A stretch of 64,000 nt of DNA from Alkalimarinus sediminis (GTDB taxonomy: Bacteria > Pseudomonadota > Gammaproteobacteria > Pseudomonadales > Oleiphilaceae). Position numbers and translations under genes: made by a program. The notes beneath the pieces are model-generated. The model was not told the origin of the DNA, ran no database searches, and saw only the letters and a list, made by a program, of their open reading frames with translations. Of this stretch, positions 22,152 through 28,108 are shown piece after piece; the first letter of the stretch is position 1; each line of letters opens with the position of its first letter. Where the stretch lies: assembly GCF_026427595.1 (NCBI RefSeq), contig NZ_CP101527.1, forward strand, positions 3,653,001 through 3,717,000. The letters are read 5' to 3'.

Positions 22152-23189
22152 TTACTCAGTTTTTTCAATACACTCAGCATTTGAAGGTGCTTGAGAGCAA
22201 CGCACCTTGCGCATTAGCGTAAGCATTTTAGGGCTATAAACCCCCTCATCTCGCAAACCTATGCGCACACTTCTAAACATTTCACCATAGCCATCGACTT
22301 CTGAAGCTTTTGGCGAGACCCATAGGTCATTTTCTATTGTCGCTTCAGCCTCAGCGATCATCTGAAATGCTTCGTCATATTTTGAAGCAGCATAGGTTCT
22401 AAAGTTCTGGCCAAAGCCTTCAGGGAACTTAGTAGAGTCAATCACAACCTGAAAGGTCAACTGCGCCACTTTATAACTAAAAACACCACCGGTATCACCA
22501 ATCCCTTTATGCAGTTCAAGAGGCTCATAGGCAACTGCTGGAGCATAGGCAATGTCTACACTGCCGTTATTAAATTTACCAGCAAAGTTTGCAGTACTTG
22601 AACCTACGATCGATGCACCAACGTGACGAACCATGTGCATGGCAGCATTATCGTAATCAAATGTCGCAATTTTCTTACCCTGAAGCTCTCCAACGGTATC
22701 AATCGTTCGATCACGGGCAAATAGATAAACGGCTCCCGCAGGCAGTATTCCAGCAATCTCGTATTTGCCGTTCTTTAATAACTTGGCAGCCTTTGGCTGA
22801 CTCAAGGTATCAAGAATCATCCGCATCTCTTTTTTGCTCTGGATCGCACCTAATGCACCAATAGAGCCTGAAAATGTATTGAACTCTCGCACCCGAACGT
22901 CGGTGATCAATACCGCATCACATTGACCGGCCTTGAAGTCTTCAGATGCGATTTTCTCGTCGGTATAAGCTCGAAGCTCTAAGTCTACCCCCCACTTCAT
23001 TGCAGCGGTTTTAGAAGACTTCATTAAATTATAGAGCGGCCCATTTGCACCAACTGCATCCCATACACAAAATGACCGTTTATCCATTTCTGCCTGAACC
23101 GGCGCCGCTGAAATTAGAGCGCTAGCAGCTAATGCAAGTACAGACTTTACGGGGCGAATAGATTTGAGTTTGTTTTTATTTATTTTCAT
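22152..23189 (-). CDS. Second putative TRAP-type solute-binding protein (DUF6091-like)
   Basis: 345 residues with a signal peptide (VLALAASALISAAPVQA, then EMDKRSFCVWDAVGANGP). The family is that annotated as putative solute-binding protein, DUF6091, linked to TRAP-type transport. It aligns along its whole length with the protein at 25705-26724: FKAGQCDAVLITD, ILPAGAVYLFARDRTIDTV, FAGKFNNGSVDIAYAPAVAYEPLEL and the C-terminal IGLRDEGVY / MRKVRCSQAPSNAECIEK with three or more conserved cysteines. ATG with TGGAG upstream. A terminator at 23378-23407 separates it from the permease, so it probably has its own promoter within 23190-23377. The ligand is unknown. Confidence 0.82.
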   Translation of the reverse strand: MKINKNKLKSIRPVKSVLALAASALISAAPVQAEMDKRSFCVWDAVGANGPLYNLMKSSKTAAMKWGVDLELRAYTDEKIASEDFKAGQCDAVLITDVRVREFNTFSGSIGALGAIQSKKEMRMILDTLSQPKAAKLLKNGKYEIAGILPAGAVYLFARDRTIDTVGELQGKKIATFDYDNAAMHMVRHVGASIVGSSTANFAGKFNNGSVDIAYAPAVAYEPLELHKGIGDTGGVFSYKVAQLTFQVVIDSTKFPEGFGQNFRTYAASKYDEAFQMIAEAEATIENDLWVSPKASEVDGYGEMFRSVRIGLRDEGVYSPKMLTLMRKVRCSQAPSNAECIEKTE

Positions 23190-23377
23190 GTGAACTCCAC
23201 TGAACTTTTATTATTTTAGGCTCAACACTTGGTATTCATGCCAATTATTTTCCCTACTTTGGCGTTACCGCCCAAAGGAGAATAATTACAGAATTGAATA
23301 GCCAATACTGTGAACGCATACCTGATTACGAGATGTTACATTCCAGTATTTGGCAATAATACTATTTCTTAAAGGCA

Positions 23378-23407
23378 TAAAAAAAGGGTAAGCAGCTGCT
23401 TACCCTT
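23378..23407 (-). terminator. Terminator of the TRAP permease transcript
   Basis: AAGGGTAAGCAG (23384-23395) and CTGCTTACCCTT (23396-23407) form a perfect 24-base palindrome. On the minus strand the stem ends in a run of U from the A-run at 23379-23385. It sits 29 bases after the permease stop codon and before the second binding-protein gene. Confidence 0.9.
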
Positions 23408-23435
23408 AGCATGAATCAAAATAATCTACTTGTTT

Positions 23436-25502
23436 TTAATAGCCAATGGCTAAAGGCACGAAGGCAACAAGTAGTAAGGAGATACCCATCACGATTAATG
23501 GCATGATGATACGCTCATGTCGCTGATAGAATGTACCGCCCTCTTGTAGGGCCAACTCCACCTCTTCTTGCCCAACAACCTGTCGGGTCAATAGATGGTT
23601 CAATGCCACCGGCGGGCTTAAATAACCCAATTCAAATGCGACAAGCGTAACCATCCAGAAGTGTACAGGGTGTATTCCGCTCTGGTAGGCAATTGTCGCA
23701 ATAGTAGCGCTTACCAAAATAACCGCGCCAAACGCGTCCATAATCATGCCCAGTATGACAAGTACAATAACCAACAACACCATCGCACTCCAGGCACTAT
23801 CAAATGAGTGCGGGAACATTTCCATCATACCAGAACGTTCAATAACACCACCGATACTGACAGAACAACCAATTAACAATAGCAGTGCACCGATTTCTGA
23901 TGTTGTTTCATTAGTAGCCGATCGAATACTTCTTTCCAACCCTTGATGATTAATTTCACCAGAGACATTCTTCTTACCTCCTTTGAGGGTAATATGCTCA
24001 TAGATCAGAATAGCAAGAAGCATCACAGGAAGTACTCTGGGAGCTGAAAACTCATCCATTTTCACGTCGAGTGCAAAACGATAAAACAGCACAATACCCG
24101 CAATCACTAAGATATAGGGCACAAGGTGTTTAAACTCTTTAATCATCGCCGGGAACGCTTCTCCCGCTGGCGCTAACTCAAGCTTGCTCTGACGGTTAAC
24201 GCTCATACTAACAACCATAAACATACCAGCGGTTAGTAAAAAGACCCAAATCCCCCATCCAAACAGATCATCGGTGGTGACCTCTCTGTTTAGATAGGCG
24301 ATCACTACAACCAACAAGCAAGGTCTTAAAACAACCCCTAGACTGCCTGACATAGCCGTCGCAGCCAAGGCAAGCTGCCGGCGTGCACCGGCACTTCTCA
24401 ACTCGTGATAGATAACGGCACCTGCCGCAATAACAAAGATACCTGATGCCCCCGTGTAAGCCGTTGGAATCGCCGCAGCGATAACCGCTACAACCGCCAA
24501 CATCTCAGGAGGCATTTTCCATGGCTTAAATACATTAAAGACCAGTGTTGCCAATCGAGTCTCTTTGAGCATCATACCGACCCAAACATACAAGCCGACA
24601 TTCAAGAACATATCGGATAGATCCATCATTTTATCTAGATAGATACCTATACCTGCTACGTGGCCCTCGATGGCAAAATAGGTACCAGCGATTAAGCACA
24701 TAGTCGTATATAAGGGAACAGACAGCAGCGCATGGGTAAGGTTTCCACCTGGTTTTGCATCCGCCGGAATTCTGAATAATTTAATTGCACTAATTATGGT
24801 CAGCAGTCCGAAGCCCGCTATCCACAAGTCATGGAGAATCTCTTTAGAAAGCTCAATTTCTGCTCCGCCTGAATGAGAGAGCGCTCTAAATGACAGCGTA
24901 GAAACCAAGAGCATGCCATTGGCAATAAACTGAAGCGTAAAAGACACAGTGTGATCAAGCTGAGTCTGCATCGCTCGCATGGCTATATGATGACGAGTCA
25001 TCGTGGCGGTTGCGGCGCATAGCAACACCAATAGAGCCAAAATAAACCGCTGGGAGGTAAGACCAAACGCAACAAGGTCAGAAACAAATAGCTCTACCGC
25101 TCGAAATGCTTTGACCCCGGGCGAAATTCTATCTTTAAGGACTTCATACTCTACATATTTAGCGGCGCAGTCAGACTTGGCATTTTCAAGTGAGCTGCGC
25201 AGGATAGCGGGATCGACAGGCTCATCTTCAAACAGATCCATATCATCATCAGATGAACTCTGGTCGGCTAACAACTGTTCTTGAACACGCTGTTCCACAT
25301 CAAAAGTAGCATCACAAGTTGGCTGCTGAGGGTCTATTCGAAGCTTATAATAACCACCCCAAAGCTGCTCACCCATTTTGAGCATTTGATTATGTATATC
25401 ACTACCTGTACTAAAGATAACAACAGCTAACAGCAGAATACAGGCGGGAAAAGACGATATCCACTCCCTGGCAGAACGATTAGCAAATCCACGTTTTTCC
25501 AT
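23436..25502 (-). CDS. TRAP transporter permease, small and large subunits fused
   Basis: 688 residues with many membrane helices. One N-terminal helix (FPACILLLAVVIFSTGSDI) is followed by about 90 periplasmic residues containing a very acidic patch (SSSDDDMDLFEDEPVD). Then come three or four helices resembling a DctQ-type small subunit, and from about residue 270 a DctM-like large subunit: MCLIAGTYFAIEGHVAGIGIYL, AIPTAYTGASGIFVIAAGAVIY, GSLGVVLRPCLLVVVIAYL, MIMDAFGAVILVSATIATIAY and the closing YLSPPVALNHLL motif typical of TRAP/DctM proteins. TRAP systems are ion-driven importers of organic acids and related solutes. Flanked by two binding proteins and a TatT-like lipoprotein. Confidence 0.88.
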   Translation of the reverse strand: MEKRGFANRSAREWISSFPACILLLAVVIFSTGSDIHNQMLKMGEQLWGGYYKLRIDPQQPTCDATFDVEQRVQEQLLADQSSSDDDMDLFEDEPVDPAILRSSLENAKSDCAAKYVEYEVLKDRISPGVKAFRAVELFVSDLVAFGLTSQRFILALLVLLCAATATMTRHHIAMRAMQTQLDHTVSFTLQFIANGMLLVSTLSFRALSHSGGAEIELSKEILHDLWIAGFGLLTIISAIKLFRIPADAKPGGNLTHALLSVPLYTTMCLIAGTYFAIEGHVAGIGIYLDKMMDLSDMFLNVGLYVWVGMMLKETRLATLVFNVFKPWKMPPEMLAVVAVIAAAIPTAYTGASGIFVIAAGAVIYHELRSAGARRQLALAATAMSGSLGVVLRPCLLVVVIAYLNREVTTDDLFGWGIWVFLLTAGMFMVVSMSVNRQSKLELAPAGEAFPAMIKEFKHLVPYILVIAGIVLFYRFALDVKMDEFSAPRVLPVMLLAILIYEHITLKGGKKNVSGEINHQGLERSIRSATNETTSEIGALLLLIGCSVSIGGVIERSGMMEMFPHSFDSAWSAMVLLVIVLVILGMIMDAFGAVILVSATIATIAYQSGIHPVHFWMVTLVAFELGYLSPPVALNHLLTRQVVGQEEVELALQEGGTFYQRHERIIMPLIVMGISLLLVAFVPLAIGY

Positions 25503-25611
25503 GGAACAACAGCCCCCAAAGCTAATTATTTATTTTGTTTATTCTTGTATGATCTGAAATGACGAGGCAGCCAACTCTCAATTAGTTACCTATACTCGAT
25601 GCGTTGCGAGA

Positions 25612-25647
25612 AACTGGCGACACTCAAACAACAAGAGTCGCCCAGTT
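25612..25647. repeat. Stem-loop between binding-protein and permease genes
   Basis: AACTGG-CGAC-CTC at 25612-25625 pairs, with two small bulges, with GAG-TCGCC-CAGTT at 25635-25647. No U-run follows on the minus strand. Placed between the binding-protein gene and the permease gene in a shared transcript, it may protect the 3' end of the upstream message or cut down read-through. Confidence 0.45.
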
Positions 25648-25704
25648 CAGCGACCCTTATCAAGTTATTTAACGGCATATTCACTATCAGAACATACCTA
25701 TCCA

Positions 25705-26724
25705 TCACTCTCTTTTTTCAGCACACTCAGAGTTTGTTGGGTTCTTTTTACAACGAACTTTTCTCATTAGACGCAACGCTTTGGCATCATAAACACCTTC
25801 GTCTCGTAACGAAATACGCACTTCTTGAAGCATTTTGGCGTAACCGTCTAACTGCTCAGCAGTCGGCTTCATCCAGTATTCTGGTTTGATTTCAGCTTCT
25901 GCTGCTTCAACTAGTTTATACGCCTCTTCAAAACGTGTAGCCGAGTAGTCTCGTACTTTTTGGCCGTACCCTTCAGGAAAACGATCGATGCGCGCAATAA
26001 TCTGGAAGTTCATCTGCGCTAGTGAAAATTGAAAAACACCGCCATTTTCACCTAAGCCTTTGTATAGCTCTAGAGGGGTGTAAGCAACAGCAGGCGCGTA
26101 GGCGACGTCAACACTACCGTTATTAAACTTACCGGCAAAGTTCGCAGTACTAGCACCCACTACCGATGCGCCTACATGGCGAACCATTGTCATAGAAGCC
26201 TGGTCGTAATCCAGAGTCGCGACTTTTTTACCTTGTAGCTCTTCAACCGTGTCGATTGTGCGATCTCGAGTATATAGGTAGATCGCACCTGCAGGTAGAA
26301 TACCCGCTACTTCGTACTCACCACTCTTCATTAATTTAGCCGCTTTTGGTTGCGTCAGAGTTTGCAGTACCAATCTCATCTCTTCAGTGCTTGGAATAGC
26401 ACCTATGGCTTCTAACGAACCCGTAAACTTATTGAACTCTCTTGCGCGAGTACCGGTCAAAAGAACCGAATCACACTGCCCTGCTTTGAAGTCTTCTGCA
26501 GCGATCTTTTCATCCGTGTATGCAACAAGCTCGAGGTTAATGCCCCACTTCATCGCACTTGGCTTAGCAGACTTCATAACATTAAACAAAGGGCCATTAG
26601 CGCCAATAGGGTCCCATACACAAAATGTTCTATCCATCATTTCTGCCTGAACAGCTCCACTGGTAGCGGATGCTGAGACAACAGCGGCAACTGAGAGCGC
26701 CTTAATATTCTTCAATAACTTCAC
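25705..26724 (-). CDS. Putative TRAP-type solute-binding protein (DUF6091-like)
   Basis: 339 residues, exported by a Sec signal peptide (NIKALSVAAVVSASATSGAVQA, then EMMDRTFCVWDPIGANGP). It is a paralogue of the protein at 22152-23189 over its full length, sharing KWGINLELVAYTDEKI, EDFKAGQCDSVLLTG, QPKAAKLMKSG, ILPAGAIYLYTRDRTIDTVE and MRKVRCKKNPTNSECAEK. The fold should be a two-lobed periplasmic binding protein. The GTG start has AAGGG about eight bases upstream. Upstream by 68 bases is the lipoprotein gene, and downstream is the permease, consistent with an operon lipoprotein-receptor-permease. Confidence 0.85.
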   Translation of the reverse strand: MKLLKNIKALSVAAVVSASATSGAVQAEMMDRTFCVWDPIGANGPLFNVMKSAKPSAMKWGINLELVAYTDEKIAAEDFKAGQCDSVLLTGTRAREFNKFTGSLEAIGAIPSTEEMRLVLQTLTQPKAAKLMKSGEYEVAGILPAGAIYLYTRDRTIDTVEELQGKKVATLDYDQASMTMVRHVGASVVGASTANFAGKFNNGSVDVAYAPAVAYTPLELYKGLGENGGVFQFSLAQMNFQIIARIDRFPEGYGQKVRDYSATRFEEAYKLVEAAEAEIKPEYWMKPTAEQLDGYAKMLQEVRISLRDEGVYDAKALRLMRKVRCKKNPTNSECAEKRE

Positions 26725-26792
26725 GGGTTTGCCCTTATTTCCTAGTATTTAAATATGATAACGGATGCTTAAATGTCTCTGATTTATCCCTT

Positions 26793-27839
26793 TTATAAGA
26801 GATCGTCCAACTCCATTACTTCTACATTTGAGTCTTTCTTATCATCCCAAAATGTACCAAGCCCACCCAACGGAGTTCTATGGCCTGTATTCTCAGTCCA
26901 AAGCCTGTCTGATAATGCTTGTAGTTGAAGTGTCGCTGTTGTGTCTATCAGAATGTATTCAGGGTCTGCAGGGTGTTTTTTAACTTGGTCTGCATGACGA
27001 CGAATAATATCTTTAACCAGGTCATCTTTACCGTTGGTAAAAGCAGCCATCGCATACATTACATTGGGAAGTCTAACCCTCGCTTCTTCACCCTTAGCTT
27101 GAGCAGTTTCTAAGCGCTCCCAAGCATTTTCTCCCTGAGGAAGAGCCCCTGGCAACATCGCCCAAACAGCTGCCTTCATCGCCATAGGCACACCCCACCA
27201 CTGGTCGTCATTTAAGCAGCTAGTGCCACGCTCTACTTTAGAAGCGATATTCTTGGGCACACCAATACTAGAGGTTGATTGAATTTCATTATTCAGAGCT
27301 TGCAAGCCCGCTAGCATACCGGCAATCCAGATAAACTGATCAAACTCATCATCAAGATCTGGGCACTCACCGCCAGGCTCGCCATAGTAATTGACTAAGT
27401 GATTATAAGCTGCAAATTGTCGCTTAGATGCATTGATCAAATGACGCTTTTGAGTGATTAAGGCGTCTTCAGCCTCATCTGGACGCAAATCACGCATTGC
27501 TCTCAGGTAGCGTAGTTCGTTATCCCAGGCTCTCTGCTCTTCACACGCACCCGCAGACAACCCCATCATTACACCTAGTTGATCGGGGTTTGATGTAACT
27601 CGACCAAAAGCCATCAGCAGAGGAGACATAGCTTCACTCATCGCGCAGCTCACCGCTAAGTCTTCAGTACCGAGCATATAGGGCACTGTATGCTCCTTCG
27701 CAAGGTTCTGCATTACGTCTCCAGCCGGGGCATAGACCACTTTATCTTTGAAGGTTTGACACCCAACCAGTGGTATCGAGACAGCCGCTAGCAGTAAGCT
27801 GTTTTTAAGTAGACTTTTTATTACCCCGAAGTTTTTCAC
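26793..27839 (-). CDS. Lipoprotein resembling the TRAP TatT component
   Basis: 348 residues with a type II signal peptide: NSLLLAAVSIPLVGC, where Cys27 is the likely lipidated residue. The remainder is mostly alpha-helical with repeating pairs (LRYLRAMRDLRPDEAEDALITQKRHLI, FIWIAGMLAGLQALNNEI, AMKAAVWAMLPGALP, ERLETAQAKGEEARVRLPNVMYAMAAFT), the character of the TPR-like T component of the tripartite TatPT-TRAP systems known from Treponema. It is likely anchored in the outer or inner membrane leaflet facing the periplasm, handing solute to the adjacent binding protein. The start is GTG with GGAG six bases upstream. First gene of the cluster. The family call is by pattern and context. Confidence 0.7.
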   Translation of the reverse strand: MKNFGVIKSLLKNSLLLAAVSIPLVGCQTFKDKVVYAPAGDVMQNLAKEHTVPYMLGTEDLAVSCAMSEAMSPLLMAFGRVTSNPDQLGVMMGLSAGACEEQRAWDNELRYLRAMRDLRPDEAEDALITQKRHLINASKRQFAAYNHLVNYYGEPGGECPDLDDEFDQFIWIAGMLAGLQALNNEIQSTSSIGVPKNIASKVERGTSCLNDDQWWGVPMAMKAAVWAMLPGALPQGENAWERLETAQAKGEEARVRLPNVMYAMAAFTNGKDDLVKDIIRRHADQVKKHPADPEYILIDTTATLQLQALSDRLWTENTGHRTPLGGLGTFWDDKKDSNVEVMELDDLL

Positions 27840-28108
27840 CTGAATCTCCTGTTACAACATTTATATTTTGTTGTTTTATTGTTATCGACTTATTGTTTTT
27901 TGTGTCGAACTGCTTGATTTAGCAGATTATGGACTAGATACAAACGCAATTGTGAGATCAATTACACAAAGCAGAAAAAAAATCGGGACAAACGTTCAAT
28001 TTTCAAGGTTAAATTTTAGTATCACAGCCGCATAACCCTCTATAAATCATAAATCTAAGCATTATTGACTTAAATATCGAAAAATCCGTGGCAAATCATA
28101 AAATCGCT

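Follow-up and report, generated by a model that had tools for sequence, protein, structure and literature searches.

A conserved TPAT-like gene cluster of new composition in Alkalimarinus sediminis, most likely an importer of hydrophobic compounds

In the receptors of tripartite ATP-independent periplasmic (TRAP) transporters, a single arginine coordinates the carboxylate of the ligand and is present in 96.8% of DctP sequences, while TatP(T) of Treponema pallidum, a receptor of the T-protein-assisted TRAP (TPAT) type, has alanine at that position and a hydrophobic pocket (PMC4646407). BstC, a protein of the T-component superfamily, binds sterols (PMC10942540). PF19582 (AdeT1_2) has already been noted as a binding-protein family; it belongs to the periplasmic binding protein (PBP) clan and was reported to be most like DctP by fold comparison (PMC11467057). 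AdeT1 and AdeT2 of Acinetobacter baumannii are counted as resistance-nodulation-division (RND) efflux pumps in surveys (PMC5622949). The present analysis concerns a gene cluster of Alkalimarinus sediminis encoding a TatT-like lipoprotein, two PF19582 receptors and a fused TRAP permease, which is located within a stretch of 64,000 nt (the window; assembly GCF_026427595.1, contig NZ_CP101527.1, positions 3,653,001-3,717,000 of the forward strand). The cluster is conserved and most likely encodes an importer of hydrophobic compounds that is TPAT-like and new in its composition. No report of PF19582 paired with a T-like lipoprotein and a TRAP permease was identified in the literature searched, nor was the term DUF6091, after which the first-pass annotation had labeled the receptors DUF6091-like.

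The genome (G000) is a single contig of 4.2 Mb and harbors one such lipoprotein and four AdeT1_2 receptors, two in the cluster and two orphans. The ORF calls confirmed four open reading frames where the first-pass annotation had placed them, every one on the minus strand and spanning 27839 down to 22152. The cluster and its associated elements are organized as follows:

26793..27839, minus strand: lipoprotein, TatT-like and all-helical in its predicted fold, 348 amino acids (aa), lipobox LVGC at Cys27
25705..26724, minus strand: receptor 1, AdeT1_2 (PF19582), 339 aa, signal peptide, Ala169 at the TRAP arginine position
25630..25661, minus strand: conserved hairpin in the gap between receptor 1 and the permease, 5/5 genus genomes, compensating changes
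23436..25502, minus strand: fused DctQ-DctM permease, 688 aa, hydrophilic insert at about 48-127 with invariant Cys63 and Cys112
23384..23407, minus strand: Rho-independent terminator 3' of the permease gene, 5/5 genomes, compensating changes
22152..23189, minus strand: receptor 2, AdeT1_2, genus-specific duplicate of receptor 1, 345 aa
27922..27982, minus strand: 60-nt conserved block 5' of the lipoprotein gene, with the inverted repeat TTGTG...CACAA

The conserved core consists of three genes, coding for the lipoprotein, an AdeT1_2 receptor and the fused DctQM permease. The lipoprotein and PF19582 were found to co-occur: of 147 relative genomes, 95 have both and none has only one of the two. 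The full-length window-type permease was present in 93 of these 95, the exceptions being G061 and the 88%-complete genome G017. None of the 52 relatives without the lipoprotein had it, the best match there having an E-value of 3.6e-29. An even sample of the class (274 genomes) showed the lipoprotein in 4, the receptor in 5 and both in 4. Among 40 fetched loci, the lipoprotein and permease genes were close together in 34, and in 28 of these the receptor gene was placed directly between them. Named permease loci were scanned using the permease alignment, as the lipoprotein alignment offered no conserved stretch for searching; in the best 80 matches, which represent the nearest relatives and not a sample of the whole family, the lipoprotein gene adjoined the permease gene in all 80, and a receptor gene was present too in 73. 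These loci belonged mostly to Marinobacter, Hahella, Oleiphilus and Oleispira, and also to Thalassolituus, Halospina and others. The first-pass annotation had treated the four genes as one system; conservation across genera holds for the three-gene core and not for the four-gene unit, as receptor 2 is confined to the genus.

Assignment to the TRAP type was supported by the C-terminal part of the permease, which matched DctM (PF06808) with 73.6 bits (cut-off 23.8), as well as by the fold match of its QM architecture. The predicted model (predicted local distance difference test, pLDDT, 83) aligned over ∼600 columns with the cryo-EM structures of the fused IseQM and SiaQM permeases (best E-value 2.5e-11), bearing out the earlier description of the permease as fused. 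In the Q part, the first and second membrane helices are separated by a hydrophilic stretch (residues 48-127) with a mean Kyte-Doolittle value of -0.76, in which Cys63 and Cys112 were invariant (29/29). With the positive N-terminus placed inside, this insert is probably periplasmic, and it may serve to dock the receptor or the lipoprotein.

Both receptors belong to PF19582, with scores of 292.7 bits for receptor 1 and 271.4 bits for receptor 2 (cut-off 27), and share 66% identity, in agreement with the earlier claim of two receptors of the same family. Their likeness to DctP was weak: receptor 1 missed the cut-off of PF03480 (17.4 vs 23.4 bits), the score against NF037995 was 49.3 bits for a cut-off of 50, and phmmer/hmmsearch comparison with PDB sequences yielded only marginal TRAP receptor matches. 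The column equivalent to Arg-147 was located by aligning with HMMER to two structures, SiaP 2XWK, which by its sequence in the alignment is the R147A form, and 4N91, which has arginine. Among 37 AdeT1_2 receptors, this column contained Ala in 31, Gly in 4, Ser in 1, Pro in 1 and Arg in none. The single aligned DctP of the A. sediminis genome keeps the arginine, and three TPAT receptors of the class have tryptophan. Since the Arg-147 equivalent is absent, the usual carboxylate contact is, as judged by the alignment, missing from AdeT1_2 receptors, as in the Treponema system.

The lipoprotein showed nothing over the cut-off among the Pfam and NCBIfam families. The lipobox Cys27 was invariant in the alignment of 35/35 relatives, as were Cys65, Cys99, Cys159 and Cys208. 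Aspartate was found in no alignment row at position +2 after the lipobox cysteine, and by the general +2 rule outer-membrane sorting is therefore expected, which suggests that the lipoprotein is sorted to the outer membrane. The AlphaFold2 model was all-helical with a pLDDT of 91.6. Foldseek comparison with the PDB returned, within the first six matches, TatT (3U64), TatT in the TatP(T) complex (4DI3), BstC (7T1S) and a TPAT protein (8G53), which were the top non-designed folds, with a probability of 0.99-1.00. In sequence, phmmer/hmmsearch against the PDB gave no usable match for the lipoprotein. A candidate homology to TAtT (hhalign E-value 4e-5) was rejected as it came from the signal peptide/lipoprotein leader only. 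PF16811 (TAtT) matched neither the lipoprotein nor anything else in the whole A. sediminis genome; the true TAtT family was present in 33 of 143 sampled genomes of the class, and one genome (G125) has both TAtT and the window-type lipoprotein. Hence, what the first-pass annotation called a TatT-like helical lipoprotein is TatT-like in its predicted fold, the TatT/TPAT T-components being nearest, while homology to TatT, or membership of PF16811, is not established by sequence. In one genus member (G004), the lipoprotein ORF is only 212 aa long (L103:10681-11319), being either truncated or affected by an assembly error.

A clue to the substrate was provided by a paralogous lipoprotein-receptor-permease cluster found in many genomes of the Marinobacter family, the lipoprotein of which is 31-38% identical. 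The atuA gene, the marker of acyclic-terpene breakdown, was located less than 5 kb from the paralogous lipoprotein gene at 48 of 56 places, with a median gap of 1.1 kb. At the loci read, a divergent operon codes for AtuA, a short-chain dehydrogenase/reductase (SDR), a carboxyltransferase, an acyl-CoA dehydrogenase, an enoyl-CoA hydratase, a biotin carboxylase, a second SDR and an acyl-CoA synthetase, and a TetR gene sits between this operon and the paralogous cluster. The gene order from AtuA to the acyl-CoA synthetase corresponds to the atuABCDEFGH arrangement known from acyclic-terpene catabolism. The paralogous cluster is a lead for a terpenoid transporter and offers a concrete, testable ligand class in the genetically tractable Marinobacter. 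The window cluster is not placed beside atu genes, the atuA of its genome being 1.1 Mb away, and the clue therefore holds for the family and only indirectly for the window copy. The substrate had been proposed earlier to be hydrophobic or aromatic; a hydrophobic compound is plausible in view of the arginine loss and the paralogue beside acyclic-terpene genes, whereas evidence for an aromatic one was not obtained.

The paralogous cluster together with TetR and a complete divergent atu-like operon was observed at L095, L096, L098, L100 and L101. At L096, genes for an S8 subtilase and for a PrcB-C protein lie directly 3' of the paralogous cluster on the same strand (L096:12972-16237), and genes of similar length occupy this position in L095, L098 and L101. 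A further copy of the paralogous cluster is carried on plasmid pHP-187 of Marinobacter adhaerens HP15 (L234:3726-7941), with no atu operon within the 14 kb read.

On balance, a TPAT-like importer for a hydrophobic compound, probably alkyl or isoprenoid, is the likelier interpretation, held with some reserve. In such a system, the lipoprotein would take the ligand into its all-helical ring at the inner face of the outer membrane and would pass it to the periplasmic AdeT-type receptor, which would hold it without an arginine-carboxylate salt bridge and deliver it to the fused QM permease for import, presumably driven by an ion gradient. Receptor 2, whose gene is transcribed 3' of the terminator, could broaden or adjust the set of ligands that this permease imports. 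To our knowledge, no TPAT system has a proven substrate. Several observations weigh against the TPAT-like interpretation. For the T-component fold, a helical ring with TPR-like hairpins, the Foldseek E-values of the matches were modest (0.05-0.24), and the TM-scores of the lipoprotein model ranged from 0.31 to 0.54, with 0.38/0.45 for 3U64 and a target-normalised 0.54 for 8G53. Without its signal peptide, the mature lipoprotein gave an hhalign E-value of 0.44 against TAtT, equal to shuffled controls. In addition, TatP(T) of T. pallidum is itself a lipoprotein and the window-type receptors are not, the lipoprotein and receptor are without a known ligand, and the window copy adjoins pckA/pyrC genes with no pathway neighbor. 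Because the lipoprotein does not match TAtT in sequence and the fold scores are modest, the cluster, which probably operates in the manner of a TPAT, is not filed as one. The neighboring pyrC/pyrB, pckA and hslO genes were rejected as a clue to function; the same genes are found there in Marinobacter, and the location of the cluster therefore reflects inheritance. The gene for WS/DGAT (wax-ester synthase) was present in 90 of 95 genomes with the lipoprotein versus 22 of 52 without it, a comparison confounded by relatedness. A TPAT-like importer would bear on the passage of oily molecules through the periplasm of bacteria that degrade hydrocarbons.

The second receptor is not part of the core. 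When 52 receptors were placed in a tree, the receptor 1 sequences of the five genus members grouped in one starred clade and their receptor 2 sequences in another, the two clades being sisters with moderate support (87/79). Receptor 2 was kept behind the conserved terminator in 5/5 genus genomes. The tree thus indicates that receptor 2 arose by duplication within the genus. In other genera, receptors have multiplied separately, with the extra receptor placed upstream, and up to 11 receptors accompany one lipoprotein in G036. A broader interpretation, which we put forward only tentatively, is that these clusters form a strongly diverged or independently derived second class of T-protein-assisted TRAP importers for alkyl/isoprenoid compounds, built around a hub of one lipoprotein and one permease that serves an expandable set of interchangeable AdeT receptors; if so, the Acinetobacter "AdeT efflux pumps" would be import receptors.

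As for the two orphan receptors of the A. sediminis genome, one is encoded just 5' of a Cache-domain chemotaxis receptor (L226:5034-7918, ∼C1:2484000-2487000) and possibly also feeds a chemotaxis signal. The other is flanked on one side by the gene for a DUF445 membrane protein and on the other by a divergent gene for an AraC-family regulator (L225:4593-6944, ∼C1:596600-599000).

The expression of the cluster may be shaped by three conserved elements. The strong terminator of the first-pass annotation is present 3' of the permease gene as a hairpin (23407-23384) with a T run behind it, and is conserved by compensating base changes in all five genus genomes. The second hairpin (25661-25630), which the first-pass annotation had missed and which shows the same pattern of conservation, is a probable attenuator or partial terminator that may lower the expression of the permease relative to the receptor. 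The block at 27922-27982, near-identical in four genus members, is a probable promoter/operator. A conserved 18-nt motif 5' of receptor 2 was considered as a regulon signature and rejected, as it had one mismatch-free site in the genome and no second one at a related gene.

Apart from uptake of a hydrophobic compound, the cluster could encode a conventional TRAP system that takes up a small organic acid or another hydrophilic solute, the lipoprotein merely scaffolding or positioning the receptors. Most TRAP systems take up carboxylates (PMC4646407), the permease has the normal fused QM fold and the receptor narrowly misses the NF037995 cut-off, but none of the 37 receptors has the carboxylate arginine, acyclic-terpene genes accompany the paralogue and the lipoprotein and permease are almost invariably retained together, which renders this explanation unlikely. 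Somewhat less probable again is envelope-lipid trafficking, as proposed for the BstABC sterol proteins, in which endogenous lipids would be moved between the membranes with no nutrient import. The resemblance of the lipoprotein fold to sterol-binding BstC would fit such a role, as would the wide conservation of the system, its vertical descent and its housekeeping location within the family; against this, TRAP permeases with a receptor import into the cytoplasm, the paralogue accompanies a catabolic operon, and absence from 52 of 147 relatives indicates that the system is not essential. A role in drug efflux, as implied by the AdeT1/AdeT2 name, the "RND transporter" label in A. baumannii annotation and the use as efflux markers (PMC5622949), is highly improbable, as the receptors are periplasmic binding proteins by Pfam and published fold comparison (PMC11467057), their partners are a TRAP permease and a T-like lipoprotein and not an RND pump, and Pfam/NCBIfam profile searches matched none of the cluster proteins to an RND family.

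The Acinetobacter case was followed up in A. baumannii VB958 (CP040042.1; L235:2322-5936 and L233:4069-8181), which has homologues of the lipoprotein (E-value 1.3e-117) and the permease (E-value 4.8e-240). Their genes lie together, separated by rrtA, a gene of the rhomboid family, and the lipoprotein is annotated as a "hypothetical protein". Five PF19582 receptors were counted in A. baumannii, three of which are arranged in tandem away from the permease, two labeled RND transporter and one hypothetical. It is suggested that AdeT1 and AdeT2, which serve as markers of efflux in surveys of A. baumannii, are receptors for uptake.

Comparison with the described systems places the cluster as follows. 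Methylococcus BstC is likewise all-helical, falls in the same structural neighborhood (7T1S, probability 0.99) and has a reported hydrophobic cavity, but its partners are the RND protein BstA and the phosphonate-type binding protein BstB, with no TRAP permease. AdeT1 and AdeT2 of A. baumannii belong to the same PF19582 family, in a genome that also carries the lipoprotein and permease homologues; they differ from the window receptors in being encoded at a distance from the permease, and the rhomboid-family gene interrupts the lipoprotein-permease pair. Proteobacterial TPATs (TAtT PF16811, DctP, DctQ and DctM) share the lipoprotein-receptor-permease order and a likely hydrophobic ligand, whereas their DctQ is a separate gene in four clearly read loci (L229-L232) and tryptophan occupies the arginine position in three. 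The TPAT of T. pallidum (Tp0956-Tp0957 and permease; TatT-TatP(T)-TatQ/M) differs in several respects: the window lipoprotein is not detected by PF16811 and shows no sequence homology, the window receptors are PF19582 proteins below the DctP cut-off and are not lipoproteins, and the window system has the 80-residue hydrophilic permease stretch with two invariant cysteines as well as extra receptors. Similar to the window cluster, it encodes a TRAP permease, a receptor and a helical lipoprotein together, the predicted fold of the window lipoprotein is nearest to TatT, and the equivalent of Arg-147 in the receptor is alanine.

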